Source: Chryseobacterium sp. JM1 (lineage in GTDB: Bacteria; Bacteroidota; Bacteroidia; Flavobacteriales; Weeksellaceae). Taken from it: a stretch of 64,000 nt of DNA. Of the stretch, positions 12,331 through 48,767 are shown one piece after another (within the stretch, counting starts at the first letter, position 1; the number at the start of each line of letters is the position of its first letter). The stretch spans positions 1 through 64,000 of the forward strand of contig NZ_JPRN01000012.1 in assembly GCF_000737715.1 (NCBI RefSeq), in the 5' to 3' direction. The translations under genes and the position numbers were made by a program. The notes beneath the pieces are model-generated. The model saw nothing but the letters and a program-made list of their open reading frames with translations. It ran no database searches and was not told where the DNA came from.

Positions 12331-12377
12331 CAGCTCTTTTAATAATCTTAAAGAGTTCCTATCTTAGCAAAAAAACA

Positions 12378-13433: not shown

Positions 13434-13449
13434 AAAAGACGACAAAAGT

Positions 13450-13479
13450 AAAAAGCCAGCTGAATCAGCTGGCTTTTTT
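13450..13479. terminator. Bidirectional terminator between xth and the RlpA-like gene
   Basis: Perfect 19-base palindrome GCCAGCTGAATCAGCTGGC flanked by five A on the left and six T on the right, between convergent genes. It can terminate both. Confidence 0.93.
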
Positions 13480-13496
13480 AAATTTAAATCATAAAT

Positions 13497-22963: not shown

Positions 22964-23608
22964 TTATTTTTTAAAATGATTTTTACTTAAATTTCTGCTG
23001 ATTCCCAAATCATCAACCTCATCTACCGTCTGTCCGTTTACAATTGTTGATGACTTAAATAAAATAGATTTCACAGTCAAAAATATAATTTTTATATCTA
23101 AAGTCAAGGAAAGATTTTCGACATAATAAACATCATTATTGAATCTTTCTGAAAATTTCATCTGATTTCTTCCTTTTACCTGAGCCAATCCTGTAATTCC
23201 GGGACGTACCCAATGTCTTCTTTTGTGGTATTCAGAATAGAATTCCAAATATTCCGGTAACAGGGGACGCGGCCCTATTAAGCTCATTTCTCCTTTTAAA
23301 ATATTAAAAAACTGAGGCAACTCATCCAAGGATGTTTTTCTTACAAATGAACCAAATGATGTAAGCCTTTCTGTATCCGGCAACAGGACCCCGTCACTGT
23401 CCTTTTTATCATTCATTGTTTTAAACTTAATAATTTTAAAGATCTGATCATTCTTCCCTGCTCTTTTTTGAAAGAAAAAAGGGCTTCCCTGATTAACCAT
23501 CCAAAGACCTATCATTACGAATAAAAATATCGGGCTGAAGATCAGTAAAAAGATTAAAGCTAAAATAAAATCGATAATTCTTTTTATAAATAATTTATAC
23601 ATCTGCAT
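22964..23608 (-). CDS. PglC-like phosphoglycosyl transferase
   Basis: Initiating enzyme that loads a phosphosugar on undecaprenyl phosphate at the inner membrane. The 214 residues show one N-terminal re-entrant membrane helix (12-35), FKIIKFKTMND, the catalytic Asp-Glu in KTSLDELPQFFNILKGEMSLIGPRPLLPEYL and WVRPGITGLAQVKGRN. Layout and wording match Campylobacter PglC, which uses UDP-diacetylbacillosamine. With the PglF-like and PglE-like genes this suggests that the glycan starts with a bacillosamine-type sugar. Confidence 0.9.
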   Translation of the reverse strand: MQMYKLFIKRIIDFILALIFLLIFSPIFLFVMIGLWMVNQGSPFFFQKRAGKNDQIFKIIKFKTMNDKKDSDGVLLPDTERLTSFGSFVRKTSLDELPQFFNILKGEMSLIGPRPLLPEYLEFYSEYHKRRHWVRPGITGLAQVKGRNQMKFSERFNNDVYYVENLSLTLDIKIIFLTVKSILFKSSTIVNGQTVDEVDDLGISRNLSKNHFKK

Positions 23609-24872: not shown

Positions 24873-26009
24873 TTAGCTTTTTCTCCAAACTACTCTGTTG
24901 ATATAGTCGGTATAACTTAAAATTATTCTTACCACTTTCTGGGAGACATTAGGCATCGAATAGTCAGCAACCTGTCTGTAATTTCTTTCATCTCCTATTT
25001 TCTGCTCCTCAAGCTGTACCAGCCCCTGAAGAATTCTTTCGGGTGACATTCCTACCATCATTACGGATGCCTCTTCCATAGCCTCGGGTCTTTCATGCGC
25101 ATCTCTGATGTTAAGCGCTCTGAAGTTCAATATTGAAGATTCTTCGGAAATTGTTCCTGAATCTGAAAGAACGGCATAACTTCTCATCTGCAGTGCATTG
25201 TAATCGTGAAAACCAAGTGGTTTTAAAAACTGAATTTCAGGTCTTACTTCCAGCTTCATTTTATCAATCATATTTCTAGTTCTCGGGTGAGTGGAAACAA
25301 TGATAGGATAACTGAACTTTTCAGCGATTGCGTTCAGACTGTCTATTAATCCTCTGAAATTCTTTTCTGAATTGATGTTCTCCTCTCTATGTGATGAAAC
25401 CACGAAGTATTTTCCTTCTTCCAGATTCAGTCTTGAAAGTACATCTGAGCTTTTGATCTCAGGAAGATAATGGTTTAAAACTTCAAACATCGGAGAACCT
25501 GTCTTGATAATTCTGTCCGCAGGAAGACCTTCTCTTAAAAGGTATTCACGGGCGATGTCAGAATATGTTAAATTAACATCTGAAGTATGGTCTACAATTT
25601 TACGGTTGGTTTCTTCCGGTACCCGCTGATCAAAACATCTGTTCCCTGCTTCCATATGGAAAATCGGAATCTGCCTTTTCTTTGCAGGAATAGCACACAG
25701 ACATGAATTGGTATCTCCAAGTACTAAAAATGCATCCGGCTGCTGTTCTTCAAGAAGCGGATCGATTTTAATCAGGATATTTCCAACAGTTTCAGTGGCT
25801 GTTTTTCCGGCTGCTTCAAGAAAAAAGTCCGGTTTTCTTAGGCCCAGGTCTTCGAAAAAAATCTGATTAAGTTCATAATCATAATTCTGTCCGGTGTGGA
25901 CAATGATATGTTCGATGGCTTCAGATGCATCCAAAGCTGATAATACTCTCGATAGTCTAATAATTTCCGGTCGCGTACCCACGACTGTCATTACTTTTAA
26001 TTTTTTCAT
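24873..26009 (-). CDS. fnlC: UDP-N-acetylglucosamine 2-epimerase family, probably UDP-L-FucNAc synthase (FnlC/CapG)
   Basis: Non-hydrolysing nucleotide-sugar 2-epimerase, 378 residues: TVVGTRPEIIRLS at the N-terminus, HTGQNYDYELNQIFFEDLG, HMEAGNRCFDQRVPEETNR near 140 and VLSDSGTISEESS near 285. WecB-type enzymes use UDP-GlcNAc, but with CapE and CapF encoded nearby the expected substrate is UDP-2-acetamido-2,6-dideoxy-L-talose, giving UDP-L-FucNAc. It could alternatively serve as WbpI for the 2,3-diamino uronic acid. The reading frame overlaps the preceding polymerase gene by 53 bases; ATGs at 26009 and 25991 are both possible. Confidence 0.85.
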   Translation of the reverse strand: MKKLKVMTVVGTRPEIIRLSRVLSALDASEAIEHIIVHTGQNYDYELNQIFFEDLGLRKPDFFLEAAGKTATETVGNILIKIDPLLEEQQPDAFLVLGDTNSCLCAIPAKKRQIPIFHMEAGNRCFDQRVPEETNRKIVDHTSDVNLTYSDIAREYLLREGLPADRIIKTGSPMFEVLNHYLPEIKSSDVLSRLNLEEGKYFVVSSHREENINSEKNFRGLIDSLNAIAEKFSYPIIVSTHPRTRNMIDKMKLEVRPEIQFLKPLGFHDYNALQMRSYAVLSDSGTISEESSILNFRALNIRDAHERPEAMEEASVMMVGMSPERILQGLVQLEEQKIGDERNYRQVADYSMPNVSQKVVRIILSYTDYINRVVWRKS

Positions 26010-27212: not shown

Positions 27213-28331
27213 CTAAACTTCTACAAAGTAAGTATCTGCATCTTCCGGATTAAAAGGTTCATTGATCCAGAATATGGTATACAATTCTTCATCACCAATA
27301 TTTTTGATATTATGGGTATACCAAACCGGCATGTCTACATAGGCAGGTTCTGTACCGTCCAGATAAAAATCCAGAACTTCACCGGTATCTATTTTGCGCA
27401 GCTGGATCAGGGCTTTTCCTTTGATCACTGCAAATCTTTCTATTTTTCTTGTATGGAAATGGTTTCCGCGTGTAATTCCGGGAACAGTCGTGGAAAAAGA
27501 ACACTGTCCACCGATTCCCAGTCTGATTACCTCAACGAAAGCACCTCTTGGGTCTGTATGCTGTGTAAATTTAACAGGATAATGATTTTTAATATCAAAA
27601 TAACAGCGGAATGTGTTGAAAAGGTTTAAATCAAATTTAGATTCCAATACCGGAATTTCGCCGTTATCAAAATACAGCTTTTTATAGTTCTCCAGTTTGG
27701 CCAGTACATCCGACACTTTATTAACGGATGTATGAGCAACTTCATGCAAGTTGTGGGTTTCTCCGGATTCTATCTGACTGATTATTTCCTGAACCAGTTC
27801 TCCGACATAGATCAGTTTTACTTCACCGTCAGTATCAATCACAGGCGTTTCTCCATGGGTAAGCTTGTAGCAGAACGTAGCAACAAATGAGTTGTAATTG
27901 GGTTTTCCGAAAGGTCCAAAAACATTGGGAACAATCATTCCAGTAAATGTTCCTCCCGATTTTTCTGCCCAGGCGGCAAGGATTTCGCGGCCTTCTTTCT
28001 TGGATTTCCCGTAGAGATTGTCTCTCTCTTCCTGAGATGAAGATGAAAAGAGTACGTGAGCTTTAGAGCCTGTTCTTTCCAGAGCGTCAGCCAGTTTTTG
28101 TACCAGTTCTACATTGCTTGCATAAATGACTTCAGGATCCGGATGACGGTTCATGGCAGCAAGATGGACAATGACGTCGCATTGCTTTACAAATTCATCC
28201 ATCTTTTCGGGAGTTTCAAAGTATTCTTTTTCAAAGTCTACTCTTTCAAAATCCTCCGGTCTTAAGCCTAATGTGTTGTATAAATGTGAACCGACAAAAC
28301 CTTTCTGCCCGGTAATTCCTATTTTCTTCAT
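27213..28331 (-). CDS. capF: CapF/FnlB-type bifunctional reductase (SDR plus cupin)
   Basis: Second enzyme of UDP-L-FucNAc synthesis. Residues 1-245 are a short-chain reductase (GITGQKGFVGSHLYNTL, VHLAAMNRHPD, YGKSKKEGREIL); residues 250-372 form a cupin with HTDPRGAFVEVIR, TRGNHFHTRKIERF and DMPVWYTHNIKN, whose histidines bind metal. In Staphylococcus CapF the cupin epimerises C3 and the SDR reduces C4 of the CapE product. Full length. It overlaps the preceding cupin gene by four bases (ATGA). Confidence 0.93.
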   Translation of the reverse strand: MKKIGITGQKGFVGSHLYNTLGLRPEDFERVDFEKEYFETPEKMDEFVKQCDVIVHLAAMNRHPDPEVIYASNVELVQKLADALERTGSKAHVLFSSSSQEERDNLYGKSKKEGREILAAWAEKSGGTFTGMIVPNVFGPFGKPNYNSFVATFCYKLTHGETPVIDTDGEVKLIYVGELVQEIISQIESGETHNLHEVAHTSVNKVSDVLAKLENYKKLYFDNGEIPVLESKFDLNLFNTFRCYFDIKNHYPVKFTQHTDPRGAFVEVIRLGIGGQCSFSTTVPGITRGNHFHTRKIERFAVIKGKALIQLRKIDTGEVLDFYLDGTEPAYVDMPVWYTHNIKNIGDEELYTIFWINEPFNPEDADTYFVEV

Positions 28332-28763: not shown

Positions 28764-29798
28764 TTAGTCAGGGTACTGCATAATATCTTCTCCCAGAACT
28801 TCTTTTCTTATCAATGGAAGTTTCAGCATCAGCTTTTTCATTCCTTCGACATCCTGCTGTTCTGTATTGTGAGAATGATAGTCTTCAATTTTAGAAATAT
28901 CATCAATTCCCTCGGAAAAATACTGGGCATAATTCAGATCTCTGTTGTCTGCAGGAATTCTGTAAAAATCACCCATATCTTCAGCCTTGATCATTTCTTC
29001 ACGTGTACACAATGTCTCGTAAAGCTTTTCCCCATGTCTAGTTCCGATAATTTTTATTTCATTATCTGCCTTGAACATTTCCTTTAATGCCTGTGCAAGA
29101 TCTCCAATGGTTCCTGCAGGTGCTTTATTCACAAATAGGTCACCGGAATTTCCATGTTCAAATGCAAACAATACCAGATCCACCGCCTCTTCCAGAGACA
29201 TCAGAAATCTGGTCATATTGGGATCTGTGATGGTAATAGGGTCTCCACTTTTAATCTGTTTGATAAACAGTGGAATTACAGATCCTCTTGAGGCCATTAC
29301 GTTTCCGTATCGGGTAAGGCAAACTGTAGTATCTTCTAAATTACGAGAGGCTGCCACCGCTACTTTTTCCATCATTGCTTTGGAAATCCCCATTGCATTG
29401 ATAGGATAAGCAGCTTTATCGGTGCTGAGACAGATCACTTTTTTCACTTTATTCTGTGCGGCAGCGTCAATAACGTTTTGTGTTCCTTCAACGTTAGTTT
29501 TCACGGCCTGCATAGGAAAGAATTCACATGAGGGAACCTGTTTTAATGCAGCAGCATGGAAAACATAATCCACCCCTCTCATGGCGGGTTCTACACTTTT
29601 ATAATCTCTTACGTCTCCGATGTAAAATTTCAGTTTATCATTTTTAAACTGATTTCTCATATCATCCTGTTTTTTTTCATCACGTGAAAAAATACGTATT
29701 TCCTTAAAGTGGTCTGTATTTATAAACTTTCTTAACACAGCGGTTCCAAATGAACCTGTTCCCCCTGTGATAAGAAGTATTTTATCTTTTATCTGCAT
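28764..29798 (-). CDS. capE: UDP-GlcNAc 4,6-dehydratase/5-epimerase (CapE/FnlA)
   Basis: First enzyme of UDP-L-FucNAc synthesis, converting UDP-GlcNAc to a 4-keto-6-deoxy-L-sugar. The 344-residue SDR has GGTGSFGTAVL for NAD(P), FHAAALKQVPSCEF, and STDKAAYPINAMGISKAMMEK, with the Met-xxx-Lys that replaces the usual Tyr-xxx-Lys in this dehydratase group. SRGSVIPLFIKQI and RHGEKLYETLCTREE complete the family pattern. Unlike the operon's first gene it is soluble, without membrane helices. Confidence 0.93.
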   Translation of the reverse strand: MQIKDKILLITGGTGSFGTAVLRKFINTDHFKEIRIFSRDEKKQDDMRNQFKNDKLKFYIGDVRDYKSVEPAMRGVDYVFHAAALKQVPSCEFFPMQAVKTNVEGTQNVIDAAAQNKVKKVICLSTDKAAYPINAMGISKAMMEKVAVAASRNLEDTTVCLTRYGNVMASRGSVIPLFIKQIKSGDPITITDPNMTRFLMSLEEAVDLVLFAFEHGNSGDLFVNKAPAGTIGDLAQALKEMFKADNEIKIIGTRHGEKLYETLCTREEMIKAEDMGDFYRIPADNRDLNYAQYFSEGIDDISKIEDYHSHNTEQQDVEGMKKLMLKLPLIRKEVLGEDIMQYPD

Positions 29799-29811: not shown

Positions 29812-31626
29812 TTATTTTTCTATCTTCATGTTATACAGTTTTTCCCAAACTGCGATGTTATAAAGTCTCCATTCCAAATCCCGGTCTTCTATAAAATCAA
29901 ATTTCTTTTTTGAAATTTCCTGAATAATTTTCGAATTATTAATGGTTTCAATAATTTTTTCTGATCTGGGCCACCAATGTTCAACGGGAGCATTTAAACC
30001 TATTTTTCTATTGTTATAGGTAATTTCATCTGGGACAAATTTCTCCAGGCCTCTTCTTAATATATATTTAGACCATCCATCCCTTATTTTATAATTATTG
30101 TTTATAGACAATACCGTTTCTACAAACTGATAGTCTAAAAACGGCAATCTGGACTCTATAGAATATAACATGGAATTTTTGTCTTCTATTCTTAAGATAC
30201 AGGGAAGGAGGAAATAAAAAATCTCATTTTTCTGAAGTTCAAAAATATTTTTATAAGATTTTGCAAGCGTTTTCAGTTGGACGAAATTGATCACTCCCAA
30301 ATATTTCTTTTTTAATATGGAGCCTCTTATTTGAAGTCTCATCTTTCTTATAAAGTAATTTGAAAAGTAAAAATAGATTTTTACTGCTTCCAGAATGGAA
30401 ATATTATAGTGGCTTTTAACTCCCCTCAAAAATTTTATGTTGGATATCCAGCCATGATTTCTTAAAAATGCTGCCGTATATCTGCTGTAGCCTAATAAAA
30501 TTTCATCAGCACCCTGGCCGTCCAGAAAAACTTTAATTCCCAACTTATTAGCTTCCTTCATTAAAAAATTCTGCATGAAAATTGATAATTCAGCAAAAGG
30601 CTCTTCATGCATGAAAATCACATCTTCCAGAATTTCATTAAATTCATCAGGTTTTGGAATTACAATATCATGATTTACTTTTAAGGCTTCCGAAATTATT
30701 TTGGCCAAACCGCTCTCATCATCTCTCTTGTCTAATGATCCTACAGTGATGGCTGTAAAGTCTCTATTATTTTTTTTGTCTATAATTTTATTGGCGACAG
30801 AAGTAACATAAGGGCTGTCTAAACCACCGCTTAACGCACTTCCAATTTTCACATCTGACCTTAGTCTTAGCCTTACCGATTCTTCAAATTTTTCTTCAAA
30901 AAGTTTGATAGATTCATCAAGGTTCAGTTTATTTATTTCTTTATTAAATTCAATTTCATAATATTTATACATCTGAAACTGATGGGTATTGAAATCGTAG
31001 ACCAGATTATGAGAAGCCGGCAATATAGTTATCCCTTCAAAAAAAGTATCCTTATAATCCCCCATATTCATAATCAAATATTGGAGGAGTATCTGAACAT
31101 TTACTTTTTCAATCTTTTCGACTTCTAAAATCGGCTTTATTTCTGAGGCAAAAATGAATTTGTCATGATCGGCATAGTAGTAAAACGGCTTAATTCCGAA
31201 ACGATCTCTGGAACAGAACAGTTTATTATTTTCAGAATCGAAAATAGCAAACGCCCACATTCCGTTGAATTTCTTTGTACATTCCTCGCCCCAACAGTCG
31301 TATGATGCAATGAGAACTTCCGTATCGGAATTGGTTTTGAATGTATATCCCTGCTTTTCAAGCTCTTCTCTTATTTCAATATAGTTATAAATAGCACCGT
31401 TAAATACTAAAACATGTTTATCTTCAAAAAAAAATGGCTGGTTTGCGGCTTCACTGGTATCAATAATGGACAGTCTTCTATGCCCTAGCCCCAGATTTGA
31501 ATCTTCATTAATATAAAAACCTTCTGCATCAGGGCCTCTGTGAGACATTTTATCTGTCATTCTTTTCAGAATAGTATTGTCAATTCGTGTTTTATCTCTA
31601 TAAATTAATCCTGATATTCCGCACAT
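29812..31626 (-). CDS. asnB: Glutamine-hydrolysing asparagine synthase family protein
   Basis: The 604-residue product has the N-terminal glutaminase domain starting at catalytic Cys2 (MCGISGLIY, then MSHRGPDAEGF, NGAIYNYIEIREEL) and a C-terminal synthase domain with PP-loop SALSGGLDSPYV near 265. In polysaccharide clusters such enzymes often amidate a sugar carboxylate rather than aspartate. The uronic acid made by the WbpA/B/E/D enzymes would be a natural target. Whether this copy makes asparagine or a uronamide cannot be decided from sequence. Confidence 0.88.
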   Translation of the reverse strand: MCGISGLIYRDKTRIDNTILKRMTDKMSHRGPDAEGFYINEDSNLGLGHRRLSIIDTSEAANQPFFFEDKHVLVFNGAIYNYIEIREELEKQGYTFKTNSDTEVLIASYDCWGEECTKKFNGMWAFAIFDSENNKLFCSRDRFGIKPFYYYADHDKFIFASEIKPILEVEKIEKVNVQILLQYLIMNMGDYKDTFFEGITILPASHNLVYDFNTHQFQMYKYYEIEFNKEINKLNLDESIKLFEEKFEESVRLRLRSDVKIGSALSGGLDSPYVTSVANKIIDKKNNRDFTAITVGSLDKRDDESGLAKIISEALKVNHDIVIPKPDEFNEILEDVIFMHEEPFAELSIFMQNFLMKEANKLGIKVFLDGQGADEILLGYSRYTAAFLRNHGWISNIKFLRGVKSHYNISILEAVKIYFYFSNYFIRKMRLQIRGSILKKKYLGVINFVQLKTLAKSYKNIFELQKNEIFYFLLPCILRIEDKNSMLYSIESRLPFLDYQFVETVLSINNNYKIRDGWSKYILRRGLEKFVPDEITYNNRKIGLNAPVEHWWPRSEKIIETINNSKIIQEISKKKFDFIEDRDLEWRLYNIAVWEKLYNMKIEK

Positions 31627-31640: not shown

Positions 31641-32408
31641 TTAATTCTTTTGTATCAACCTTTCTTTATCCTCAAAAGCAGGATAATTTATTAAAACAGC
31701 TTTATATACTCCTTTAAATACGAATAAGCTTCCTGCGGCTACCCCTATTATTCCGTGTTTATCTATTACTTGTTTTATATCGCTCAAAGAACCTGCACCG
31801 CCTAAAACCGTAAGCGGAAGTGATATCTTTTCTCTAACCTTATTGATTAAATTCATGTCATAGCCTTTCATAACGCCGTCCTGGTCTATAGAATTAATAA
31901 CTATTTCACCAGCGCCAAGCCTCTGTGCTTCTTCTACAAACTTAAAGGGGTCTATTCCCGTAGATTTTTTACCATTATGCGTGTACACTTCATATCCTCC
32001 AAAAAGTTTTTTCTTTACATCCAGGACTACGATTACGCTTTGTGAACCTACACGTTCTGCGATCTGTGTAATAAGCTGTGGATTTTGAAGTACAGCGGAA
32101 GAAAGTGCTATTTTCTCTATTCCAAGTCCAAAAATTTTCTGAGCCTGTTCTACGGTTTTTACACCACCACCATAACAAAGCGGCATTCTGGATTGGTTCG
32201 CTATTCTTTCAATCAGGCTGTAGTTTGGCTCAAGGCCTTTTGCTGTAGCATCGATATCAAAAATGGCAAGCTCGTCTACTTCCTTTTCGTTAAATATCCT
32301 TACGGCATTGATGGGATCTCCTACGTATTTTGGATTTTTAAAATTGACAGTCTTTACAAGTCCATTATCCTGGAGTAAAAGACTCGGTATAATTCTTGGC
32401 CTCAGCAT
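31641..32408 (-). CDS. HisF-like subunit of an N-acetyl-sugar amidotransferase system
   Basis: A 255-residue TIM barrel resembling HisF (MLRPRIIPSLLLQDNG, CYGGGVKT, INSIDQDGVMKGYD, LGGAGSLSD, GVAAGSLF). The catalytic Asp11 of HisF is Leu here, so it is unlikely to make the histidine/purine intermediates. Its likely role is to help the HisH-like glutaminase deliver ammonia to the amidotransferase encoded two genes upstream, as in the Pseudomonas WbpG/HisH2/HisF2 system. Confidence 0.85.
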   Translation of the reverse strand: MLRPRIIPSLLLQDNGLVKTVNFKNPKYVGDPINAVRIFNEKEVDELAIFDIDATAKGLEPNYSLIERIANQSRMPLCYGGGVKTVEQAQKIFGLGIEKIALSSAVLQNPQLITQIAERVGSQSVIVVLDVKKKLFGGYEVYTHNGKKSTGIDPFKFVEEAQRLGAGEIVINSIDQDGVMKGYDMNLINKVREKISLPLTVLGGAGSLSDIKQVIDKHGIIGVAAGSLFVFKGVYKAVLINYPAFEDKERLIQKN

Positions 32409-32414
32409 TTGTGA

Positions 32415-33029
32415 TTATAATTTTGCAAAGTTGTGTAATAGGATTTCGCCATAATGATGGCTTTTTTCGGGATGAAACTGTATTCCGTACTTATTTTCAT
32501 GATGTGCTGCCGAAGCAAACTCACCGCCATAATCTGTAATAGCCATGATATCTTCCTGATTGTTACAGTGAAAATAATAGGTGTGAAGAAAATAAAAAAT
32601 AGAATCAGTTTCAAGGCCTTTAAACAGTTCAAGATCTTTCACCGGCTTTACATCATTCCACCCCATGTGCGGAAGTCTTGTCACCTGATGAATTTTTGTT
32701 TCGTCAAATTTCTTTACCGAAGCATCAATCCACTTCAGACCATCTAATTTTCCTTCATCGCTATTATTGGCCATCATCTGCATTCCCACACATATTCCGA
32801 TCACCGGAATATTCTGGCCAAGCACAAGATCATCCAGCTTATCTCTCATTCCGGAATTATTCAGCTGGGTCATAGCGTGATCAAAGTGACCTACTCCCGG
32901 GAGAATCAATTTTTCGGCTCCTTCCAGGTCTTCTTTAGTTTTGGCTATTTTTACAGGAACATCAACTCTTTTGTAAACATTTACAAAGGCATTGATATTT
33001 CCTACCCCGTAATCAATAAGTGTTATCAT
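32415..33029 (-). CDS. HisH-like glutaminase subunit of the sugar amidotransferase system
   Basis: Class I glutamine amidotransferase, 204 residues, releasing ammonia from glutamine. The triad is present: nucleophile Cys in GICVGMQMMA, and His and Glu in GIQFHPEKSHH near the C-terminus; the oxyanion region is LPGVGHFDHAM. It overlaps the amidotransferase gene before it by four bases and is followed by the HisF-like gene after six, the standard order for this ammonia-channelling trio. Confidence 0.9.
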   Translation of the reverse strand: MITLIDYGVGNINAFVNVYKRVDVPVKIAKTKEDLEGAEKLILPGVGHFDHAMTQLNNSGMRDKLDDLVLGQNIPVIGICVGMQMMANNSDEGKLDGLKWIDASVKKFDETKIHQVTRLPHMGWNDVKPVKDLELFKGLETDSIFYFLHTYYFHCNNQEDIMAITDYGGEFASAAHHENKYGIQFHPEKSHHYGEILLHNFAKL

Positions 33030-34174
33030 CTAAATAATCTTTTTTCTAACCCTAATACCTTCATGGATTTTGCACCAAGTCCGATAAGTTTTCTTTTATT
33101 CTTGTAATCGTGGTATGTTTTGTTTTTTCCTTCAAATATTGTCTGAAGCTCGTCTGTCGTAAGGTCTAATTTATGTGCTACGTATTCAAATTCTTTTTGT
33201 AAAAATTCGTCAGAAAGTTCAGGTCTAGAAACTCTATCTAACGCTTCATCCCTTGTCATCTGCCCTGTCAGTATCAGGCTAGAAAAGTGTGCTTTTCTCT
33301 TTTCATATCCAAATTTTCTCGGCAACCAATAATCTTCAAAAAATCTGGTAAATCTGGATTCGTGGTGTTTATGCTGAAAACTCTCCCATCCAAACTTGTC
33401 AGCCAACAATTGTTCAACATCCTTTTTAATATACGGAACATTGTTTAAGGGCTTACAAACCTGCATTCCCAATATATATTTGTAATACAGCTTGTAATTC
33501 ATGATATCTACCATTGGAAATGTCTTCAACTCCCTTTTTCCAAATTGTTTATGGATATCTAAAATCAATCTTTTATCTATGCCGGGATATGCTCCCCATT
33601 CTTCAGGCTCTCTGCAACATTCTGTAGAATAGTTAGCTCCTGTTAATACATATTTTATTTTATTTTTTGTCGCAAATTTATAAAGGCTTGAGAAGAAAGC
33701 AATATCCTGAACATCCTGATCTGCAATTTGTGATTTTAAAAATGCCACCTGCAGGTCTTTCATTTCTTCCCAATTGATAACATCAGTGTACAGGTCTAAG
33801 TTAAGACCATTAACTAATTTTTCAATATTACTTACAGCCCTGTCTGTATTCCAGCCAGCATCCACGTGGAAAATAAGAGGACGCAGCCCCATCACTTCTT
33901 TTGCTATATACGCAGCGTAAGAACTATCCAGTCCCCCACTTAATCCGATAATACAGTCAAAATCTCTGTTTTTTCCGTCCTTTTTGATTTTTTCAGCTTC
34001 CTGTTCCAATGCTCTGAGACCTCTCTCATCAGTATGCCAGTTGGGCAGGATATTTTCTATATAATTTAAATAATAATCGCTTTCTCCTTTTTCATTAAAA
34101 ACAATATTAGGATCTGTAGTATCCATAATTGTTTTGGTACATATCTGAAATTTTCTATTTGATTCCATAAACAT
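33026..34174 (-). CDS. N-acetyl-sugar amidotransferase (WbpG/PseA/WbuX family)
   Basis: ATP-dependent enzyme turning an N-acetyl group into an N-acetamidino group. The 382 residues contain the PP-loop IIGLSGGLDSSYAAY near 83-97 and VFHVDAGWN-type and TGANYSTECCREPEEWG segments typical of the family. The N-terminus reads FQICTKTIMDTTDP and then GESDYY, where family members usually have CxxC and a second CxxC pair, so the expected zinc site is missing. Likely substrates are L-FucNAc or the 3-acetamido group of the uronic acid. Start may be 34174 or the ATG at 34168. Confidence 0.88.
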   Translation of the reverse strand: MFMESNRKFQICTKTIMDTTDPNIVFNEKGESDYYLNYIENILPNWHTDERGLRALEQEAEKIKKDGKNRDFDCIIGLSGGLDSSYAAYIAKEVMGLRPLIFHVDAGWNTDRAVSNIEKLVNGLNLDLYTDVINWEEMKDLQVAFLKSQIADQDVQDIAFFSSLYKFATKNKIKYVLTGANYSTECCREPEEWGAYPGIDKRLILDIHKQFGKRELKTFPMVDIMNYKLYYKYILGMQVCKPLNNVPYIKKDVEQLLADKFGWESFQHKHHESRFTRFFEDYWLPRKFGYEKRKAHFSSLILTGQMTRDEALDRVSRPELSDEFLQKEFEYVAHKLDLTTDELQTIFEGKNKTYHDYKNKRKLIGLGAKSMKVLGLEKRLFR

Positions 34175-35120
34175 TTTGTTTTACTTCTTTTTTCATGAGA
34201 TTTAATAAACCAATAACATACTGATCATAAAAAACATCAAAATTACTTATTTTATTTTTTTCTACTTCTTTTTTTATCACCGGATCATTCACTCTGTATG
34301 CATAGCCGTCTGCGTTCCATAAAACAAGGCCATCTATGTGCTTATTTTTATATTGAGTCTGTAATAGGGTAGATACGTAAGTTTTAAAATCAGATTCATC
34401 TATTTTGTTACTCCCGATTAATTGATTAGAAGGATGATAACGGGACATTATAAACGGATACACTTTTTTATTATATCGATCTGCGATCTTAAGCATTTCC
34501 TCTGTATTTTCCTGTATGTAAGTTTTATTTTCCAAATTAAAGCTTACATTGTTATAAAAGATATAAATGGATGGAAAAAGAACATCACTCTCTTTAATGA
34601 TCTGGTCTACTTTCTTATTTTGATCATAAAAATTTTTGTCTCTTCCCCAATAGGTGGTGAAAGGAATTCCATAATATCCCCATTTAACATTGGGTCTCTG
34701 CTGTTTTACAAAACGCAGTACATCCAAAAACAGCTTAGCACTTTTTTTATGGTTGGTACTAGTAACATCTCCTTTTAAGAGATAGTCCGTGTAAGGATAT
34801 TCTATATCTATGTAGGCAATACCTGATGATTTAGAATCAGGATAAGCCCTCTCCAACTCTTTTAAAAGAAGATCTTTACTGAATGTAAAAGGGATTTTAC
34901 TATCCATAAATTGTCCGTCATTAACATAGCGAACAAATGGGATATTTTCACGGGTAATAAAATCCACAAAAGTTTTGGAGTTATTATCAGAACAAATAAG
35001 CACCTGTGGGTTATTCTGAGTACTCATCAATTTTGATGATTCAACATTCTGCTTTTTATTATTTCCTGTACACAGTAAAAGAATTGAGGCAATAAGTATG
35101 GTGAATAATTTTGTAGTCAT
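34155..35120 (-). CDS. Secreted glycoside hydrolase resembling GH56 hyaluronidases
   Basis: A 321-residue exported protein: signal peptide with a possible, atypical lipobox (LLLC, Cys17). The mature sequence parallels GH56: IAYIDIEYPY (D105/E107, like the DxE catalytic pair of hyaluronidases), VKWGYYGIPFTTYW near 146-158, SDVLFPSIYIFY near 178-189, VYPFIMSRYH near 220-229 and IDGLVLWNADGY near 262-273. The disulphide cysteines of animal enzymes are absent. Inference: it cleaves or trims a hexosamine-containing glycan made by this operon. It overlaps the amidotransferase gene by 20 bases. Confidence 0.65.
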   Translation of the reverse strand: MTTKLFTILIASILLLCTGNNKKQNVESSKLMSTQNNPQVLICSDNNSKTFVDFITRENIPFVRYVNDGQFMDSKIPFTFSKDLLLKELERAYPDSKSSGIAYIDIEYPYTDYLLKGDVTSTNHKKSAKLFLDVLRFVKQQRPNVKWGYYGIPFTTYWGRDKNFYDQNKKVDQIIKESDVLFPSIYIFYNNVSFNLENKTYIQENTEEMLKIADRYNKKVYPFIMSRYHPSNQLIGSNKIDESDFKTYVSTLLQTQYKNKHIDGLVLWNADGYAYRVNDPVIKKEVEKNKISNFDVFYDQYVIGLLNLMKKEVKQNVYGIK

Positions 35121-35121: not shown

Positions 35122-36339
35122 TCAATGTAATTTTATTAGGTTATCATACAAATTCAGATATTCTTCAAAACGATCACCTTTATTAAATACTGAATGTGCT
35201 CTGAGTCTGCAATTATCTGTATAACTTTCTTTTCCATTTTTTTTAATTGTATAGATGGCCTCCACCAAATCGGTGATATGGTCCTGCTCTATTACAATAC
35301 CTGTATCTTCATTGATCGTTTCCGGTGAGCCTCCGGAATTAAAAGTTATAACAGGTGTTCCACATGCCTGAGCTTCAATATTGGTTAATCCTAATGCCTC
35401 TTCCAATGTAGGATTCACAAAAACATCTGCAGCGGAATAAAATTCGGCCAACTCTTGAACACTTTCTGTTCTTTCTATCCCTATAATCTTCGAAGGCAAA
35501 CTTTTAATCTGTTCTTTGCTTAAGCCTACTAATATGATCTGAAATTCATCTGACAATATATCTGAGAGTTCGATAAAATAGGGTAAGCCCTTTCTTTCAC
35601 TCCAAGGGCTAGCAACTCCTAATATTACAAATTTATTTGATAATTTATACTTTTTCTTTATCTGCTCTGTATTTTGAGGTGAAAATTGATCAACATTTAT
35701 TCCATTATGAATAGTTTGTAGATTAATTTCTTTTAAAAAAGATTCCTTTACCTGATCTCCCACCCAGTGAGATACCGGAACAATGGTTAAGTTTTCAACG
35801 GAAGTAAAGATTCGTTTTTTGTCTTTAAAATTTCTTTCAGACTGGTCAATATAAGATTTCGGATATTCTCTTGTTTGCGGGCATTCAAAACACATCTCTT
35901 TCCATTTGTTGCATCCTGCAATTTCATAATAAGCACAATGTCCTGTAAAAGACCAACAGTCGTGAAATGTCCAAACGACAGGTTTATTAAACTCTGATAA
36001 GAATTTAAATAAAATTTCAATATTTATAAAATAACCATGTAAATGATGAAGCTGAATCAAATCCGGATTTATTTCTTTAATGGTTTCTATAATTTTTTTT
36101 GTAGCAGACGCTGAACCAAATCCATGACGATCTGTAAGTCTGGTCAAAAGGCCATGTTTTATCAGATCTATTTTACCACCTATCTGAAACACCTTGGATT
36201 TGCTGGGATTATTATCTCTGGCGTATGCAATATAGCTTTCCCACCCTTTTTCAATTGCTTTTTCACCAATATGCTCAGCAATCCTGCCAACGGAACCACT
36301 GTTTACTTCGCTTGATATTTGAAAAATTTTAATACTCAT
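35122..36339 (-). CDS. Glycosyltransferase family 4
   Basis: The 405-residue GT-B enzyme begins MSIKIFQISSEVNSGSVGRIA. Its acceptor domain has the cysteine-rich segment HDCWSFTGHC and CNKWKEMCFEC near 128-155, typical of a subgroup of polysaccharide GT4 enzymes. The donor domain carries ILGVASPWSERKGLPYF and the E-x7-E type motif NPTLEEALGLTNIEAQACGTPVI. Donor and acceptor are unknown. It lies one base before the GH56-like gene. Confidence 0.87.
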   Translation of the reverse strand: MSIKIFQISSEVNSGSVGRIAEHIGEKAIEKGWESYIAYARDNNPSKSKVFQIGGKIDLIKHGLLTRLTDRHGFGSASATKKIIETIKEINPDLIQLHHLHGYFINIEILFKFLSEFNKPVVWTFHDCWSFTGHCAYYEIAGCNKWKEMCFECPQTREYPKSYIDQSERNFKDKKRIFTSVENLTIVPVSHWVGDQVKESFLKEINLQTIHNGINVDQFSPQNTEQIKKKYKLSNKFVILGVASPWSERKGLPYFIELSDILSDEFQIILVGLSKEQIKSLPSKIIGIERTESVQELAEFYSAADVFVNPTLEEALGLTNIEAQACGTPVITFNSGGSPETINEDTGIVIEQDHITDLVEAIYTIKKNGKESYTDNCRLRAHSVFNKGDRFEEYLNLYDNLIKLH

Positions 36340-36361: not shown

Positions 36362-37546
36362 TTAATTTTTCAGCGTTTGTTCTGCTATTATCCTATAATC
36401 TAAATACTCTTTTGCTGTTTTTTCTGCCCCTTTTTTCATGTCATTAATATGCGAAGGGTTATCGATTAAGCTATTCAATAACGAGGCAAAATAATCAGCA
36501 TTTAAATTTTCTTTATCCACTTTTATAATATTATTATTTTGATTCAGATAGGACATATCCTGTCCTCCTGAATCTCCCACAATTAAAGGCAGATGCATTC
36601 CTATGGATTGTTGCCATAAAACAGACTGGCTGCTTGGATACACTGCCAGATCTGATATCGCAAGTAATTCATATATTTTCGTATTATCTACCCAACCGGT
36701 AAAATGAATATTATACCCTTCGGCACTTTTCTGAATATCTTTAAAATACTGTTCTGATTCGCGATCCTCTTTTCCAAATACTATAAGATGGGCATTCTTA
36801 TTATTTATCTGTTTAAAGGCATCTACAATGATATGAGTATTTTTAAGCTTATTTATTTTACCACCGGTTATCAGTACTATACCGTTTTCTTTTATCCCAA
36901 ACTCTTCCCTTTTCTGAGTTTTGTGAATGGTATTTATTATTTCTATTGACTTATTATAATCACATCCTAATGGCAAAAGTGTCATTTCTTCATGTTCTAC
37001 ACCATATACTTCATGAAGAAAATCTGCACTTCCGGGAACTACGGGAAATATTTTACTTATATGTTTTTTATACTTATAAAAAATAGATTTCCTGATGACC
37101 TTATGCAGTATATTTAATGATAGCCAATTGTTTGCAGAGTTAGTAAAATCTGCATGATAATCCAAAATAATTTTACACTCGGGAAACTGTTTTTGATATT
37201 TTACAGCCTCTTTTAAATTGAGATGGATGTCATGCACATATATTAAATCCGGTTTCTCCTGCAAGAGGATTTCATAAACACCTTTGTGTCTTCTCAATTT
37301 ATTTAAAATATTGAGACTATAAGGCAGTCTGATAATTTTGGCCCCATAATACTCTTCCGTTTTTTGCTTTTTGGTTGCATCATATTTTTCATGGACGTAA
37401 TCAAAAATATTTTCGAAAGTAGAAGCAACTATGACCACCTGATGTCCCAGCTCCATATAATTCTTTGTAAGCAAATTTTCCTGGTAAGTATAATCTAAAC
37501 CAAAAAAATCCTGCAGCATAACTATTTTCTTACTTGTGTTTTTCAT
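36362..37546 (-). CDS. Glycosyltransferase family 4
   Basis: A 394-residue GT-B protein: MLQDFFGLDYTYQENLLTKNY in the acceptor half, LITGGKINKLKNTHIIVDAF and LIVFGKEDRES in the donor half, then AVYPSSQSVLWQQSIGMHLPLIVGDSGG where the canonical Glu pair region is altered (SVLWQQ). It overlaps the preceding polymerase gene by 17 bases. Sugar specificity is not predictable. Confidence 0.82.
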   Translation of the reverse strand: MKNTSKKIVMLQDFFGLDYTYQENLLTKNYMELGHQVVIVASTFENIFDYVHEKYDATKKQKTEEYYGAKIIRLPYSLNILNKLRRHKGVYEILLQEKPDLIYVHDIHLNLKEAVKYQKQFPECKIILDYHADFTNSANNWLSLNILHKVIRKSIFYKYKKHISKIFPVVPGSADFLHEVYGVEHEEMTLLPLGCDYNKSIEIINTIHKTQKREEFGIKENGIVLITGGKINKLKNTHIIVDAFKQINNKNAHLIVFGKEDRESEQYFKDIQKSAEGYNIHFTGWVDNTKIYELLAISDLAVYPSSQSVLWQQSIGMHLPLIVGDSGGQDMSYLNQNNNIIKVDKENLNADYFASLLNSLIDNPSHINDMKKGAEKTAKEYLDYRIIAEQTLKN

Positions 37547-38708
37547 TTTTAGATAAATTAATGGCTAAAGAAAAGACCGGCCATATTAATAGAAAATTTA
37601 CGATAGAACCAGCAGATATTGATCCAACTGTATCCATGATCAAAATGGCACCGAATAAGCTATAGGCAAAAACCCTAAGCAATTTGATCCCATAGATCAA
37701 ATTAAGTATGTATAATATAATGGATAATAGTCCTCCTACAATCCCCATAGCCATAAAAGACTCAAAGACTATATTGTGAGGATAGGTATTGCCAATCTTG
37801 GTTTCAATAGAATCTCCAAAGAATGGGTTATCCAGAAACTGATCCCAAGCCGATTTTAAAAGTGTTGCTCTGTACTGATCATTCTCATTGGCAGAATATC
37901 CTGTTTCCCCTAATCTTTGGAAAACAAGTTTGGATATCTCAAAATAACTTGGGAAAAAACTTAAAAGTGTTATCCCGATAATTAAAGAAATAATTACATA
38001 TTTTAGTTTAACCTGCCTGATGTTAAGTGCTGTAAAGAAGACGAGTACAGCTATCAATTGAACAAGGGGGCCTCTTGATCCGGCCATAAATACATTATAC
38101 AGTCCAAGGATCATCCCTATGATGTATATAATGGTGAGCAGATTTTTTTTGTATTTCAGCAGTGAAATAAAACATAAAAAAAATAAAACAGAAGATGTCT
38201 TTCCAAAAGACACCGTGTTAAGACTGCCATTACCGTCCACCCTTACTAAAAGATCCTCAGGAACAATTTGGGGATTTACAATATTATTATACAGCCCCCA
38301 TATATTAACGATGAATAATAGAATTAAAACATAGTTTTTAACATCCAAAAGGGTTTTCTCTGAAAATTTTGTCGCGCAGGCAAGCATTGATACTATGATT
38401 AACAATGAGAATGACCAATAGTCATTAATGGGCGACATTATATTTTTCGAAGTAATGGCGGTATCGTAAAGGAGTCTTAGTAAATATAAAAACCAGAAAA
38501 AAAACAGCAGGAAATGAACCCTGGTAAATTTCATTCTGTTTTTAAATATCACCAATAGCCCTGCCATCATAACAACGACCCGTAAAGCAATACTGATGGG
38601 TCTGGATTCTATTTTTAATAGATCCGGTAAAAAGGATATAAGCTCATAGCCGTAAAGCATGAGCGTGAGGAAAAAAACTTGTAGTTTATTAGATTTTTCT
38701 ACCTTCAT
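37530..38708 (-). CDS. O-antigen polymerase (Wzy)-like membrane protein
   Basis: The 392-residue product has about eleven membrane segments and a Wzy_C-type periplasmic loop: ARGDEN-like ATLLKSAWDQFLDNPFFGDSIETKIGNTYPHNIVFESFMAMGIVGG, with NPxxG and HN motifs. Next to wzx and two glycosyltransferases, it is the stronger candidate for the repeat-unit polymerase; the copy at 25957 could be a second polymerase or a ligase. It overlaps the end of wzx by 20 bases. Confidence 0.8.
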   Translation of the reverse strand: MKVEKSNKLQVFFLTLMLYGYELISFLPDLLKIESRPISIALRVVVMMAGLLVIFKNRMKFTRVHFLLFFFWFLYLLRLLYDTAITSKNIMSPINDYWSFSLLIIVSMLACATKFSEKTLLDVKNYVLILLFIVNIWGLYNNIVNPQIVPEDLLVRVDGNGSLNTVSFGKTSSVLFFLCFISLLKYKKNLLTIIYIIGMILGLYNVFMAGSRGPLVQLIAVLVFFTALNIRQVKLKYVIISLIIGITLLSFFPSYFEISKLVFQRLGETGYSANENDQYRATLLKSAWDQFLDNPFFGDSIETKIGNTYPHNIVFESFMAMGIVGGLLSIILYILNLIYGIKLLRVFAYSLFGAILIMDTVGSISAGSIVNFLLIWPVFSLAINLSKNEKHK

Positions 38709-39972
38709 TTTTTGATAAATTGTGGGTAAAATATAAAAATACTAAACTTGACAATACGGATATGATCATATAAAAAGTTAGTGATAGCAAATAATCTTTT
38801 TTTAAATAATAGCCCAAGAATATAGATATAAATATAAATATAGCATTAGCCATCTGAAGCCTCATTAATATTTTCTGTTTTTCAAAAATGTAAAACAAAG
38901 TATTCAGTGGTGCCGAAATAAATTCAAAAAACAATGCCACAGACATTATTCTGGCCATATATCCTGCTATTTCCCATTTGGCACCAAATATAATTGAAAA
39001 TAATTTAGGAGAAACAGCGAAAACAATTAGATATATAGGAAAAGACATTAACAGCAGTTTCTTAAAAGTAGAACTATAAAGCTTGGCACAATTTCCCTGC
39101 TTTCTTATTTCATCGATAGCATCATTTCTAAATACATTTCCTACAGAAGAGGTAATTACAATATTTGGAAGCCGTATCATTCTGTTCGCCATTGAAAAAA
39201 AACCTACAATGGTAGTATTATACAAAGCAGAAAATAAAATGGGTATAAATTGCTGGCACGCCGTAAGGGAAAGATCAGACAATATCATGTATCTGGGAAA
39301 TGAACTGTATTCTTTTCCCACCTCCAAAACTCCTTTGTTTGAACCTGATAACTCATTAAGCAGCTTTTTATCTGTTAAAAGCAGAAATATACTTGAAATT
39401 ATAATTCCAAGTATAAGAGAAAGGATCAATCCGCTTTCAAATTTCAAAACTCCGAAAAGCATACTAAAAAGACTTGTCCCAATTACCTGAAACGCATTAG
39501 CAATAGTAATTCTTTTATACCTTTTGTCTCGCTGGTTCCAATATCCCAGTGCAGAATAGAGGGCACCAAAGAAAATATATAGAGGAGCAAGATAAGCCTG
39601 ATTATTCGCAAGAAAACCAGTCTTATCCTGTATATGAATAATATCTTTTAGTAAAAAAATTAATACAAGATATAGTATCGAAACACAGGTTCCAATATAA
39701 ATAATAAGCTTAAAAATTTTAGCAGCTTTTCTACTATCGTCGGGAAGACCTATAGCAAGTTCATACCTTCCCGTAGACAGTACAGCAAAAAAAACCGCAA
39801 AGCTGCTGAAAACAGAAAGAAGACCAAATGCCTCTACAGAATAAAGTCGCGTAAGAAATGGAGATGTAGCTATTACAATTAATTGGCTAATAATAGTACC
39901 ACTAGATAAAATAGCAACATTCCGTAAAAACGGGTTAGATTTTATACTGGTAAAAATGCTTTTAATGCTCAA
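38689..39972 (-). CDS. wzx: Oligosaccharide flippase Wzx
   Basis: Moves undecaprenyl-linked repeat units across the inner membrane. The 427-residue product has roughly twelve hydrophobic segments arranged as in the polysaccharide biosynthesis/MATE-like superfamily; the N-terminal ATSPFLTRLYSVEAFGLLSVFSSF and GYWNQRDKRYKRI stretches are typical. It follows the PIG-L remnant and precedes the polymerase. Confidence 0.9.
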   Translation of the reverse strand: MSIKSIFTSIKSNPFLRNVAILSSGTIISQLIVIATSPFLTRLYSVEAFGLLSVFSSFAVFFAVLSTGRYELAIGLPDDSRKAAKIFKLIIYIGTCVSILYLVLIFLLKDIIHIQDKTGFLANNQAYLAPLYIFFGALYSALGYWNQRDKRYKRITIANAFQVIGTSLFSMLFGVLKFESGLILSLILGIIISSIFLLLTDKKLLNELSGSNKGVLEVGKEYSSFPRYMILSDLSLTACQQFIPILFSALYNTTIVGFFSMANRMIRLPNIVITSSVGNVFRNDAIDEIRKQGNCAKLYSSTFKKLLLMSFPIYLIVFAVSPKLFSIIFGAKWEIAGYMARIMSVALFFEFISAPLNTLFYIFEKQKILMRLQMANAIFIFISIFLGYYLKKDYLLSLTFYMIISVLSSLVFLYFTHNLSKNEGRKI

Positions 39973-40019
39973 AACTACTTAAATAATTTTTCATTCATAA
40001 TCTTTTTCTTGTCTTGCAT

Positions 40020-44250: not shown

Positions 44251-45546
44251 TTATAATCTTGCGTCTACCAAATTTCTGTCTAAACATGCTTTGGTGTCAA
44301 AAACCACTGCATTTTCTTTCTTCAAAGTATTAAGATCCATTTCAAGGAATTCGTTGTGAGAAACGGCAATGACCAGTGAGTCATATTTTTTCCCTTCCTG
44401 AAGAGCATCAAGAATATCAATTCCGTATTCATGTTTTACTTCTTCTTTACTTGCCCAAGGATCATAAATATCTACGTTTACACCGTAATCTTTAAGTTCT
44501 TTATAAATATCTACCACCTTTGTATTTCTTACATCGGGACAGTTTTCTTTAAAGGTAACGCCTAAAATCAGTGCATTTGAATCTTTGATTACTCCTCCTT
44601 TAGCAATAAGAAGTTTTACCACTTTGGAAGCTACAAATTTTGCAATAGAGTCATTCACACGTCTTCCTGATAAAATAACATCAGGATGGTATCCTAACTG
44701 TTCTGCTTTATGTGCCAGATAGTACGGGTCTACTGAAATACAGTGTCCTCCTACTAATCCCGGTTTATATTTAAGGAAGTTATATTTTGTTCCTGCAGCT
44801 TCCAGTACATCATTGGTATCAATACCAATTCGGTCGAAAATTAAAGCAAGTTCGTTTACGAAAGAGATGTTCACGTCACGCTGTGCGTTTTCAATCGCTT
44901 TGGAAGCTTCTGCCACTTTAAGACTGGATGCTTTATGCGTTCCTGCAGTAATAATTTTTTTATACAGCTGATCTACTTCTTCAGCAATTTCTTCGGTAGA
45001 TCCAGAAGTTACTTTTTTAACACTGGTCAGCGTGTTTACTTTATCACCCGGATTGATTCTTTCCGGAGAATAACCCACAAAGAAGTCTTCATTGAATGTA
45101 AGACCTGAATGTTTTTCCAGAACCGGTACACATTCTTCTTCTGTACAGCCAGGGAAAACCGTAGATTCATAAATAACAATATCACCTTTCTTAATGATTT
45201 CTCCAAGCATTTTGGATGCAGAGATAAGAGGGTTTAAGTCCGGAGCATTATATTTGTCGATAGGTGTAGGAACTGTTACAATAAAAATATTGGCATCCGC
45301 AATTTCAGACAATTGGCTGGTTGCTTTATATCCTAAACTCCCATTTGACTCTTTGAATTTTTTCAGCCCATTATTAAGCTTATCAAGATCTGCCTCCAGC
45401 GTGATGTCTTCTCCGTCATTAAGCTGATCTACACGCTGTGTATTGATATCAAACCCCAATACCGGATAGTGGCTGGCAAATTCAAGAGATAAAGGAAGGC
45501 CCACATAGCCTTGACCAATAACAGCTATTTTATATGTTTTCATCAT
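44251..45546 (-). CDS. wbpA: UDP-N-acetylhexosamine 6-dehydrogenase (WbpA/TviB type)
   Basis: NAD-dependent enzyme oxidising C6 of a UDP-HexNAc to the uronic acid. The 431 residues contain IAVIGQGYVGLPLSLEFA (NAD), TVPTPIDKYNAPDL, ESTVFPGCTEEECVPVLE, and the catalytic-Cys motif GLVGGHCISVDPYYLAHK near 265. Neighbours wbpB, wbpD and wbpE point to UDP-GlcNAc as substrate, giving UDP-GlcNAcA. Two ATGs (45546 and 45543) overlap the wzc stop. Confidence 0.93.
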   Translation of the reverse strand: MMKTYKIAVIGQGYVGLPLSLEFASHYPVLGFDINTQRVDQLNDGEDITLEADLDKLNNGLKKFKESNGSLGYKATSQLSEIADANIFIVTVPTPIDKYNAPDLNPLISASKMLGEIIKKGDIVIYESTVFPGCTEEECVPVLEKHSGLTFNEDFFVGYSPERINPGDKVNTLTSVKKVTSGSTEEIAEEVDQLYKKIITAGTHKASSLKVAEASKAIENAQRDVNISFVNELALIFDRIGIDTNDVLEAAGTKYNFLKYKPGLVGGHCISVDPYYLAHKAEQLGYHPDVILSGRRVNDSIAKFVASKVVKLLIAKGGVIKDSNALILGVTFKENCPDVRNTKVVDIYKELKDYGVNVDIYDPWASKEEVKHEYGIDILDALQEGKKYDSLVIAVSHNEFLEMDLNTLKKENAVVFDTKACLDRNLVDARL

Positions 45547-47945: not shown

Positions 47946-48767
47946 TTATTTCTTATTAAATAAACTTACAACAACAGCGATGGCTGTAACACCGATAGAA
48001 ACAGCTGTTAAGATAAGTCCTGTATTTGGGTTTTGTTTTGCTAAAACGTCTTTTGTATTGTTGGAAGAAACGATAACTGCATCACCTTGCTTAAGGTTGA
48101 AATAAGGTGAGTTAAATTGATTGGCATCCTGAAGGTTGATACGTCCATGGGTAATTACCCCATTCTCAGTTCTGACCACCAAAACGTCTTCTCTTTTTCC
48201 GTACGCAGTAAGATCACCAGCCATACCCAATACATTCAGAATGGTAGCCTGTCCGTTTGCTATAGTATAGTCTCCCTGTCTGTTGACCTCTCCCAATACC
48301 GTTACTTTAAAATTAGCAAGCCTTAGATTTACAGTAGGATTAATGACATATTTCGTCATTTTAGTCCTCAGTTCATCCTTAAATTCTACTAATGTTTTTC
48401 CTTTTGTATTCAGCTTACCTAATACCGGGAAATCTATATCTCCATCAGTATCTACTATATAGGTAGGCCCTGTAATGGTAATTAATCCCTGATTCGGTGT
48501 ATTTCCTCCTGCCGTTGCATTGGTCTGAACAAGTTCTGATGAAGAATAGTTTTGGTTAAATACTCTTACCACATCCATATCTTTTGCTGTGATGAGAATA
48601 ACAAGCTGATCTCCTGCCTGTATTGTATTAATGGAATTTCTAGCAGATGCTTCGATAGCTACTTTTTCGATATTCTGCATATAATTTAAATCATTATGAG
48701 CCTTCGGATTGGTTTTACAAGAAACCAACAAAAACACCGATAATATAGCTAATACTTTACCTTTCAT
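47946..48767 (-). CDS. wza: Wza-type polysaccharide export lipoprotein
   Basis: Outer-membrane export channel subunit. The 273-residue product has a lipoprotein signal (VFLLVSC, Cys near 17), the export domain with IQAGDQLVILITAKD and YIVDTDGDIDFPVLGKLNTKGKT, and a SLBB domain FKVTVLGEVNRQGDYTI. A C-terminal hydrophobic helix (GLILTAVSIGVTAIAVVVSLF) ends the protein as in Bacteroidota homologues. It is shorter than E. coli Wza (379), the usual case in this phylum. Seven bases before wzc. Confidence 0.94.
   Translation of the reverse strand: MKGKVLAILSVFLLVSCKTNPKAHNDLNYMQNIEKVAIEASARNSINTIQAGDQLVILITAKDMDVVRVFNQNYSSSELVQTNATAGGNTPNQGLITITGPTYIVDTDGDIDFPVLGKLNTKGKTLVEFKDELRTKMTKYVINPTVNLRLANFKVTVLGEVNRQGDYTIANGQATILNVLGMAGDLTAYGKREDVLVVRTENGVITHGRINLQDANQFNSPYFNLKQGDAVIVSSNNTKDVLAKQNPNTGLILTAVSIGVTAIAVVVSLFNKK

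Follow-up and report, generated by a model that had tools for sequence, protein, structure and literature searches.

A GH56-fold protein encoded in a Chryseobacterium polysaccharide operon as a putative enzyme for the operon's own polymer

A stretch of 64,000 nucleotides from Chryseobacterium sp. JM1 (contig NZ_JPRN01000012.1, positions 1 to 64,000; hereafter the window) encodes a 321-residue protein of glycoside hydrolase family 56 (GH56), to which passages of two sources assign the hyaluronidases of animals and venoms (PMC12254123, PMC11669647). Its gene lies within a tight, predicted Wzx/Wzy-type polysaccharide operon, and the protein is probably an exported endo-glycosidase for the N-acetyl-amino-sugar polymer of that same locus, trimming or clearing it; I infer its export, catalytic activity, substrate and physiological effect. 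Indirect support for trimming or clearing of the operon's own glycan comes from conservation of the locus, alternation with beta-helix proteins and homologues in phages. An earlier note on this DNA had put forward such a role from a few segments resembling GH56 hyaluronidases (IDIEYPY, WGYYGIPF, LFPSIY, VYPFIMSRY and GLVLWNADGY). All of them are present in the open reading frame (ORF), which starts with ATG and stays open, and the placement it gave, between a glycosyltransferase and a sugar amidotransferase, was found as described: a single base separates the end of the upstream glycosyltransferase gene from the GH56 ATG, and the WbuX gene overlaps the 3' end.

34155..35120, minus strand: GH56-fold glycoside hydrolase with putative export signal, 321 residues (PF01630 E 1.8e-10; model Z 22.1 to bee/wasp hyaluronidase)
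35070..35120, minus strand: putative N-terminal hydrophobic export signal, residues 1-17, with possible lipobox and Cys17 (hydrophobicity screen and inference)
35122..36339, minus strand: GT4 glycosyltransferase directly upstream of the GH56 gene (PF13692 E 5e-22; PF00534)
33026..34174, minus strand: WbuX N-acetyl sugar amidotransferase, overlapping the GH56 3' end by 20 bases (TIGR03573 266 bits, cut-off 203)

Searching Pfam with the window protein returned PF01630 at 40.8 bits (cut-off 23.2) as the sole family match at E <= 0.1, and phmmer against the PDB returned the bee venom hyaluronidase at 1.3e-6 and the wasp enzyme at 1.4e-4. A profile of 22 sequences, window protein included (A1), matched GH56 chains alone at E <= 1 in the PDB, with 1fcq on top at 3.4e-15; all 22 sequences matched PF01630 at E <= 0.1, and no match to this model was found in 14 control genomes. 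An AlphaFold model (A3), computed from the window protein and 11 relatives, reached a predicted local distance difference test (pLDDT) score of 84.3 and a predicted template modelling (pTM) score of 0.81. Foldseek placed GH56 structures on ranks 1 to 6 (wasp, bee and human hyaluronidases, 1.5e-11 to 2.7e-9), and structure comparison (VIA) gave Z values of 19.4-22.1 for GH56 structures, the best with a root-mean-square deviation of 3.0 over 252 aligned residues, and 12.8 for the next family. Identity to the animal enzymes in these structural alignments was 14-19%. Family and fold were thus confirmed as GH56 by hidden Markov model search and by the alignment of the predicted model with GH56 barrels, both of which the earlier note had named as checks, and no other family came close.

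A chance resemblance to GH56 was ruled out by the Pfam match, the PDB profile search and the structure comparison. Membership of another glycoside hydrolase family was likewise rejected: no NCBIfam model matched at E <= 0.1, the best PHROGs match had an E of 0.056, and the next folds were mainly GH5/GH26 mannanases at Z 12-13. The N-terminus is a hydrophobic run with no further membrane span detected by a crude hydrophobicity script; by eye, Cys17 looks like a lipoprotein site, and several relatives have a Cys at a nearby position. The 5.26-Mb genome of the strain (31 contigs) held no second GH56 copy at E <= 0.001.

The active-site set of GH56 is given, in passages of one source, as Glu113, Asp111, Tyr184, Tyr227 and Trp301 in bee numbering, with the 2-acetamido group being used at the cleavage site (PMC13080975), and part of another reports that an Asp/Glu double mutant of a wasp enzyme lost activity (PMC6892566). 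The earlier note had asked whether D105/E107 of the window protein would coincide with bee D111/E113 in a structural overlay; in the sequence alignment the two pairs do coincide. Conservation of these residues was counted over 33 homologous ORFs, window included:

34800..34808, minus strand: D105-I-E107, counterpart of bee D111/E113 (profile alignments to bee and wasp chains)
34671..34673, minus strand: Tyr150, counterpart of bee Tyr184 (phmmer alignment; 33/33)
34563..34565, minus strand: Tyr186 in FPSIY, counterpart of bee Tyr227 (phmmer alignment; 33/33)
34317..34319, minus strand: Trp268, probable counterpart of bee Trp301 (32/33; inferred from Pfam span 123-270)

The catalytic Glu107 was kept in all 33 homologues and Asp105 in 28. 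The lone non-Trp residue at position 268 belongs to a Deltaproteobacteria protein and may reflect a misalignment.

A GH56 gene was found in 24 of 148 genomes of the same genus, JM1 included. In samples of the phylum, again with JM1, it is rare: the Pfam model matched in 3 of 296 genomes and the profile in 5 of 395, including a marginal case. Left out of the GH56 count were a genus match in G310 (E 6e-4, 555-residue frame) and a phylum match in G249 (E 3.9e-4). When one genome per species was scanned by pattern, 12 loci were returned, from Chryseobacterium, Kaistella, Sphingobacterium, Flavobacterium and one Deltaproteobacteria/Myxococcota metagenome-assembled genome (MAG). Neighbouring genes were read at 30 Bacteroidota loci (the window, L030-L040 and L042-L059; 25 from the genus sample, five others), and this survey of homologues in capsule loci, which the earlier note had proposed, found polysaccharide-synthesis genes at every one. 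The GH56 gene stood directly before WbuX in 23 loci, the remaining seven (L053-L059) being divergent. In divergent loci, fourteen genes of flippase type and eight of polymerase type have a confirming Pfam match; the candidate polymerases in L034 and L053 had no Pfam family match, and no flippase was seen within the stretch read of L032, L033, L035 and L045.

Median pairwise identity of the GH56 proteins was 33% (29 loci; L041 and L059 left out of the correlation), and GH56 identity correlated weakly and unspecifically with the identities of other locus genes (rho 0.11-0.56). Genes of the FnlA, WbjC and WecB types accompany most GH56 loci and also the beta-helix loci described below, and FnlA was not seen when the neighbours in L057, L058 and L059 were read, so that this set is no pointer to the substrate. 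A link of GH56 to a given sugar was consequently rejected, the sugar genes being shared with beta-helix loci and the correlations weak.

Two genomes had several GH56 proteins. At L059 (G227, 8263-13552), a Wzx/Wzy locus, a long protein with multiple GH56 stretches is encoded between two single-domain GH56 proteins. The Deltaproteobacteria/Myxococcota MAG (G536) has two (L041/L125 and L130), one of which, with a Pfam match at 2e-45, is much nearer to the family model than proteins of the capsule-locus type; among 45 genomes of its phylum, G536 alone had a GH56 match.

WbuX scored over its cut-off in 51 of the 148 genus genomes, 19 with GH56 and 32 without, and GH56 occurred without WbuX in five genomes (association p 1e-6). 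The surroundings of WbuX were taken for all 32 GH56-free genomes (33 loci); L092 and L093 have no gene matching the WbuX of the window and hence no row in the locus comparison, and their genes were listed separately. I found that many GH56-free WbuX loci encode an exported protein of 380-550 residues near the usual place of GH56. Ten proteins from such loci were scanned: six were over the cut-off of the Pfam right-handed beta-helix model, one was just under it, one was of a beta-propeller type and two had no match. Among the matches listed, a PF13229 match within 10 kb of WbuX was present in at least 19 of the 32 GH56-free genomes and in none of the 19 with GH56 (Fisher p 1e-5), where the genome-wide search placed matches to about E 1.3e-4 and left weaker ones, such as the sole match of G434, unplaced. 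Relatedness makes the genomes non-independent, so that these p-values for GH56, WbuX and beta-helix genes are only a guide. When soluble proteins with a putative export signal were screened crudely, with the first 45 residues judged by eye, no other such enzyme beside GH56 was seen inside the operons.

Fourteen of the 19 genomes have the beta-helix gene upstream of WbuX, adjoining it or up to three genes off, and five have it downstream on the other strand. In G355 the upstream gene is split into two ORFs, and in G421 (L106, 6099-8490) it is inverted and interrupted by an integrase-core transposase gene. Upstream exported beta-helix proteins of GH56-free loci are encoded in L096, L099, L102, L103 and L111, and also in L100, L101, L104, L105, L109, L110 and L112; it is possible that they are alternative enzymes for the polymers of their own loci. 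A different beta-helix type is encoded immediately downstream of the WbjC-like gene, on the other strand (L117:13097-14017, minus strand; also L116, L118, L120 and L121), and all five of these loci are GH56-free.

Pattern scans of IMG/VR returned four contigs with GH56, which amount to three distinct proteins since two contigs share an identical 224-residue protein; two of the three adjoin recognisable head or tail genes. On the 56.8-kb contig L135 the GH56 protein is encoded near a terminase, a major head protein and an endolysin, and the same protein recurs in an 8.2-kb contig. On the 9.5-kb contig L137 the genes near GH56 include those for a GDSL esterase and a tail tube of lambda type; its GH56 protein is below the Pfam cut-off (18.7 vs 23.2) and matches the GH56 profile at E 1e-31. 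The third protein, on the 72.5-kb contig L136 (IMG/VR 3300013005_000037), shares 40% identity with the window protein in the best segment and 34% over the alignment, and begins with a membrane-anchor-like stretch; this contig is counted as viral by its collection only, and five of its other proteins had no PHROGs match, three of them no Pfam match either. Scans of IMG/VR with the protein of L132 and an L059 protein added no contig, and tblastn of the window protein against INPHARED phages and PLSDB plasmids gave no match. In a maximum-likelihood tree, L136 fell inside a starred clade of 24 rows of capsule-locus proteins, and G227 grouped with L135 and L137. On starred branches, the phage label must have changed at least twice; exact places are unsure because the tree program warns of long branches, L135 among them. 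The related bacteria and phages together suggest that the window protein cuts a bacterial polysaccharide rather than animal tissue.

Two further features of these contigs were seen. Many small proteins of L136 begin with a single membrane-anchor-like stretch. In L137 (905-3014) the GDSL esterase-type gene adjoins the GH56 gene within the phage tail region, and the two may possibly act as a pair on an acetylated capsule.

Other bacteria are known to encode, within a polysaccharide locus, enzymes that cut the product of that locus. The PslG and PelA proteins of Pseudomonas belong to other folds or families than GH56. Parts of the respective sources describe AlgL, a toroid fold and thus unlike GH56, as clearing periplasmic alginate (PMC8829089), PelA as generating low-molecular-weight secreted Pel (PMC9894940) and PslG as shaping Psl placement (PMC9075953); like the GH56 gene, all three are encoded in a polysaccharide biosynthetic operon, but they are not from Bacteroidota and their functions have been tested, whereas the role considered here is putative. 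WceF, from the stewartan cluster of Pantoea stewartii, is described in passages of PMC7949094 as a beta-helix protein with a tailspike fold that hydrolyses stewartan and whose knock-outs have longer chains. Like WceF, the window gene encodes a putative glycosidase within the cluster making its presumed substrate and has kin in phages; unlike WceF, a beta-helix trimer, it encodes a GH56 protein, and beta-helix proteins occur in many GH56-free WbuX loci of the genus. The C-terminal hydrolase domain of PgaB is also a barrel hydrolase acting on an amino-sugar polymer and encoded in its own export operon (PMC5933820), but its fold match to the model (4p7q) is far weaker than that of GH56 (Z 11.8 vs 22.1).

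The GH56 hyaluronidases themselves (bee and wasp venom, human HYAL1, PH-20) share the barrel fold, the Glu/Asp-Tyr-Tyr-Trp set and the profile match with the window protein, which differs from them in being bacterial, in its low identity and in its place in a polysaccharide-synthesis operon; its substrate is probably not hyaluronan. Passages of the literature give GH56 as restricted to the host in a termite study (PMC10018900), as a single entry in a termite transcriptome table (PMC5061848) and as absent from the genome discussed in PMC5352709. Two further papers have look-alike terms only: PMC3526467 writes GH5_6, and PMC10113389 has no whole-word GH56. Searches of the openly licensed papers of PubMed Central (PMC) turned up no account of GH56 as a phage enzyme or within polysaccharide-synthesis loci of bacteria. 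The functional class of locus-encoded cutters of their own polymer is known, and as far as these searches reach GH56 appears to be new within it; to that extent the earlier note's suggestion of a new role for the fold stands.

An endo-glycosidase for the locus's own polymer is favoured because the GH56 gene matches the description of WceF, AlgL, PelA and PslG by position, conservation and probable export, and because it shares with WceF the pattern that the same kinds of enzyme occur in polysaccharide clusters and in phages. Several results weigh against this reading. GH56 is missing from 124 of the 148 genus genomes and is therefore not needed for polymer synthesis in general. Among the matches listed, 13 of the 32 GH56-free WbuX genomes have no PF13229 match near WbuX (two of these have an exported ORF that looks helix-like by eye only, without a Pfam match), and G329, which does have GH56, has a beta-helix match ~18.5 kb off on the same contig. 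At L041, the MAG locus with longer flanks, none of the neighbours had a counterpart among the window's polysaccharide genes, with which they were compared. The Asp/Glu segment of the profile alignment contributes by itself 2.3 bits for the bee and 10.5 bits for the wasp chain. Lastly, Asp105 is replaced by Asn in five of the 33 homologues (L038, L039, L052 and two L059 proteins), all of which keep the Glu. GH85 enzymes have Asn at the place comparable to the GH56 Asp.

These Asn residues, together with the low identity to the animal enzymes, would also fit a GH56-fold lectin of little or no catalytic activity, binding the polymer as it is exported. I consider such a lectin unlikely, as Glu107, both Tyr and the Trp are kept in 32-33 of 33 homologues despite a median identity of ~33%, and Asp as well as Glu is present in the window protein. 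There is similarly little probability that the protein is a GH56-fold transglycosylase that, in place of net hydrolysis, joins or anchors chains, for example by moving polymer onto an acceptor in the outer membrane: GH56 enzymes of mammals and venoms can catalyse transglycosylation under some conditions (part of PMC11669647), and the lipoprotein-type N-terminus seen by eye in several relatives would give a placement at the membrane, but no acceptor is known, and cutting is what the phage homologues and the alternation with beta-helix proteins suggest. An enzyme secreted to hydrolyse hyaluronan or chondroitin in animal tissue or dead animal matter, and found in a capsule locus by accident, would agree with the kept active-site residues and with passages on animal GH56 acting on hyaluronan and on a chondroitin hydrolase filed in GH56 (PMC11669647, PMC5352709), yet is improbable given that all 30 Bacteroidota loci read are polysaccharide-synthesis loci, that beta-helix proteins take the place of GH56 in many others, that homologues sit in viral structural gene clusters and that the GH56 sequences diverge highly between loci.

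If the window protein is an endo-glycosidase for its own polymer, it would be exported and reside in the periplasm or be anchored in the membrane. By analogy with GH56 chemistry, Glu107 would protonate the glycosidic oxygen, and Asp105 would orient the sugar's 2-acetamido group where cleavage takes place; this group would serve as the nucleophile in a substrate-assisted, retaining mechanism. The operon genes, as read from their predicted products, point to 2-acetamido sugars such as GH56 enzymes use, and the linkage cut is not readable from sequence. In the cell, such an enzyme would either trim chain length or clear stalled periplasmic or over-long polymer.

More tentatively, and with the balance somewhat against it, GH56 may be a bacterial family of self-polysaccharide cutters shared by capsule loci and phages. 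Each polymer type of the Wzx/Wzy loci of Bacteroidota would then have a cutter of its own, either GH56 or a tailspike-like beta-helix, with exchange between loci and phages as the structure of the polymer changes, and the animal hyaluronidases would form one branch of a fold that processes bacterial surface glycans as well. If shown, GH56 as a conserved part of capsule loci that alternates with beta-helix proteins and occurs in viral contigs would be a second biological role for the fold. It might supply enzymes for rare amino-sugar capsules, and it makes testable why polysaccharide loci encode an enzyme that seemingly destroys their own product.

The GH56 gene stands inside a co-directional gene run from ~18053 to 50734. 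Its other annotated members are as follows, where the names FnlA and WbjC are approximate because the NCBIfam matches are below cut-off:

22964..23608, minus strand: initiating sugar-phosphate transferase (PF02397)
24873..26009, minus strand: WecB-type 2-epimerase (TIGR00236 242 bits, cut-off 210)
27213..28331, minus strand: WbjC-like reductase (NF047837 254.9 bits, below cut-off 500)
28764..29798, minus strand: FnlA-like UDP-GlcNAc 4,6-dehydratase/5-epimerase (TIGR04130 566 bits, below cut-off 730)
29812..31626, minus strand: AsnB-like amidotransferase (TIGR01536; PF00733)
31641..32408, minus strand: AglZ/HisF2 acetamidino modification protein (NF038364 387.8 bits, cut-off 310)
32415..33029, minus strand: HisH-type glutaminase partner (TIGR01855 223 bits, cut-off 105)
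36362..37546, minus strand: GT4 glycosyltransferase (PF00534)
37530..38708, minus strand: Wzy-type polymerase/ligase (PF04932)
38689..39972, minus strand: Wzx-type flippase (PF13440/PF01943)
45546..47939, minus strand: Wzc-like co-polymerase (PF02706 Wzz, PF13807, PF13614)
47946..48767, minus strand: Wza-like export protein (PF02563 Poly_export)

A promoter scan showed no excess (33 vs 34.8 expected), and seven terminator-like sites were counted where 3.6 were expected (standard deviation 2.2), a result not used for any conclusion. Between the Gfo/Idh-type gene and Wzx, some relatives have genes for a PIG-L deacetylase and a hexapeptide acyltransferase (L030:3561-5146), and the corresponding interval of the window (39972-40256) has no room for either gene. 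The window locus encodes two Wzy_C (PF04932) proteins, at 25957-27207 and 37530-38708, possibly the polymerase together with either a ligase or a second polymerase.

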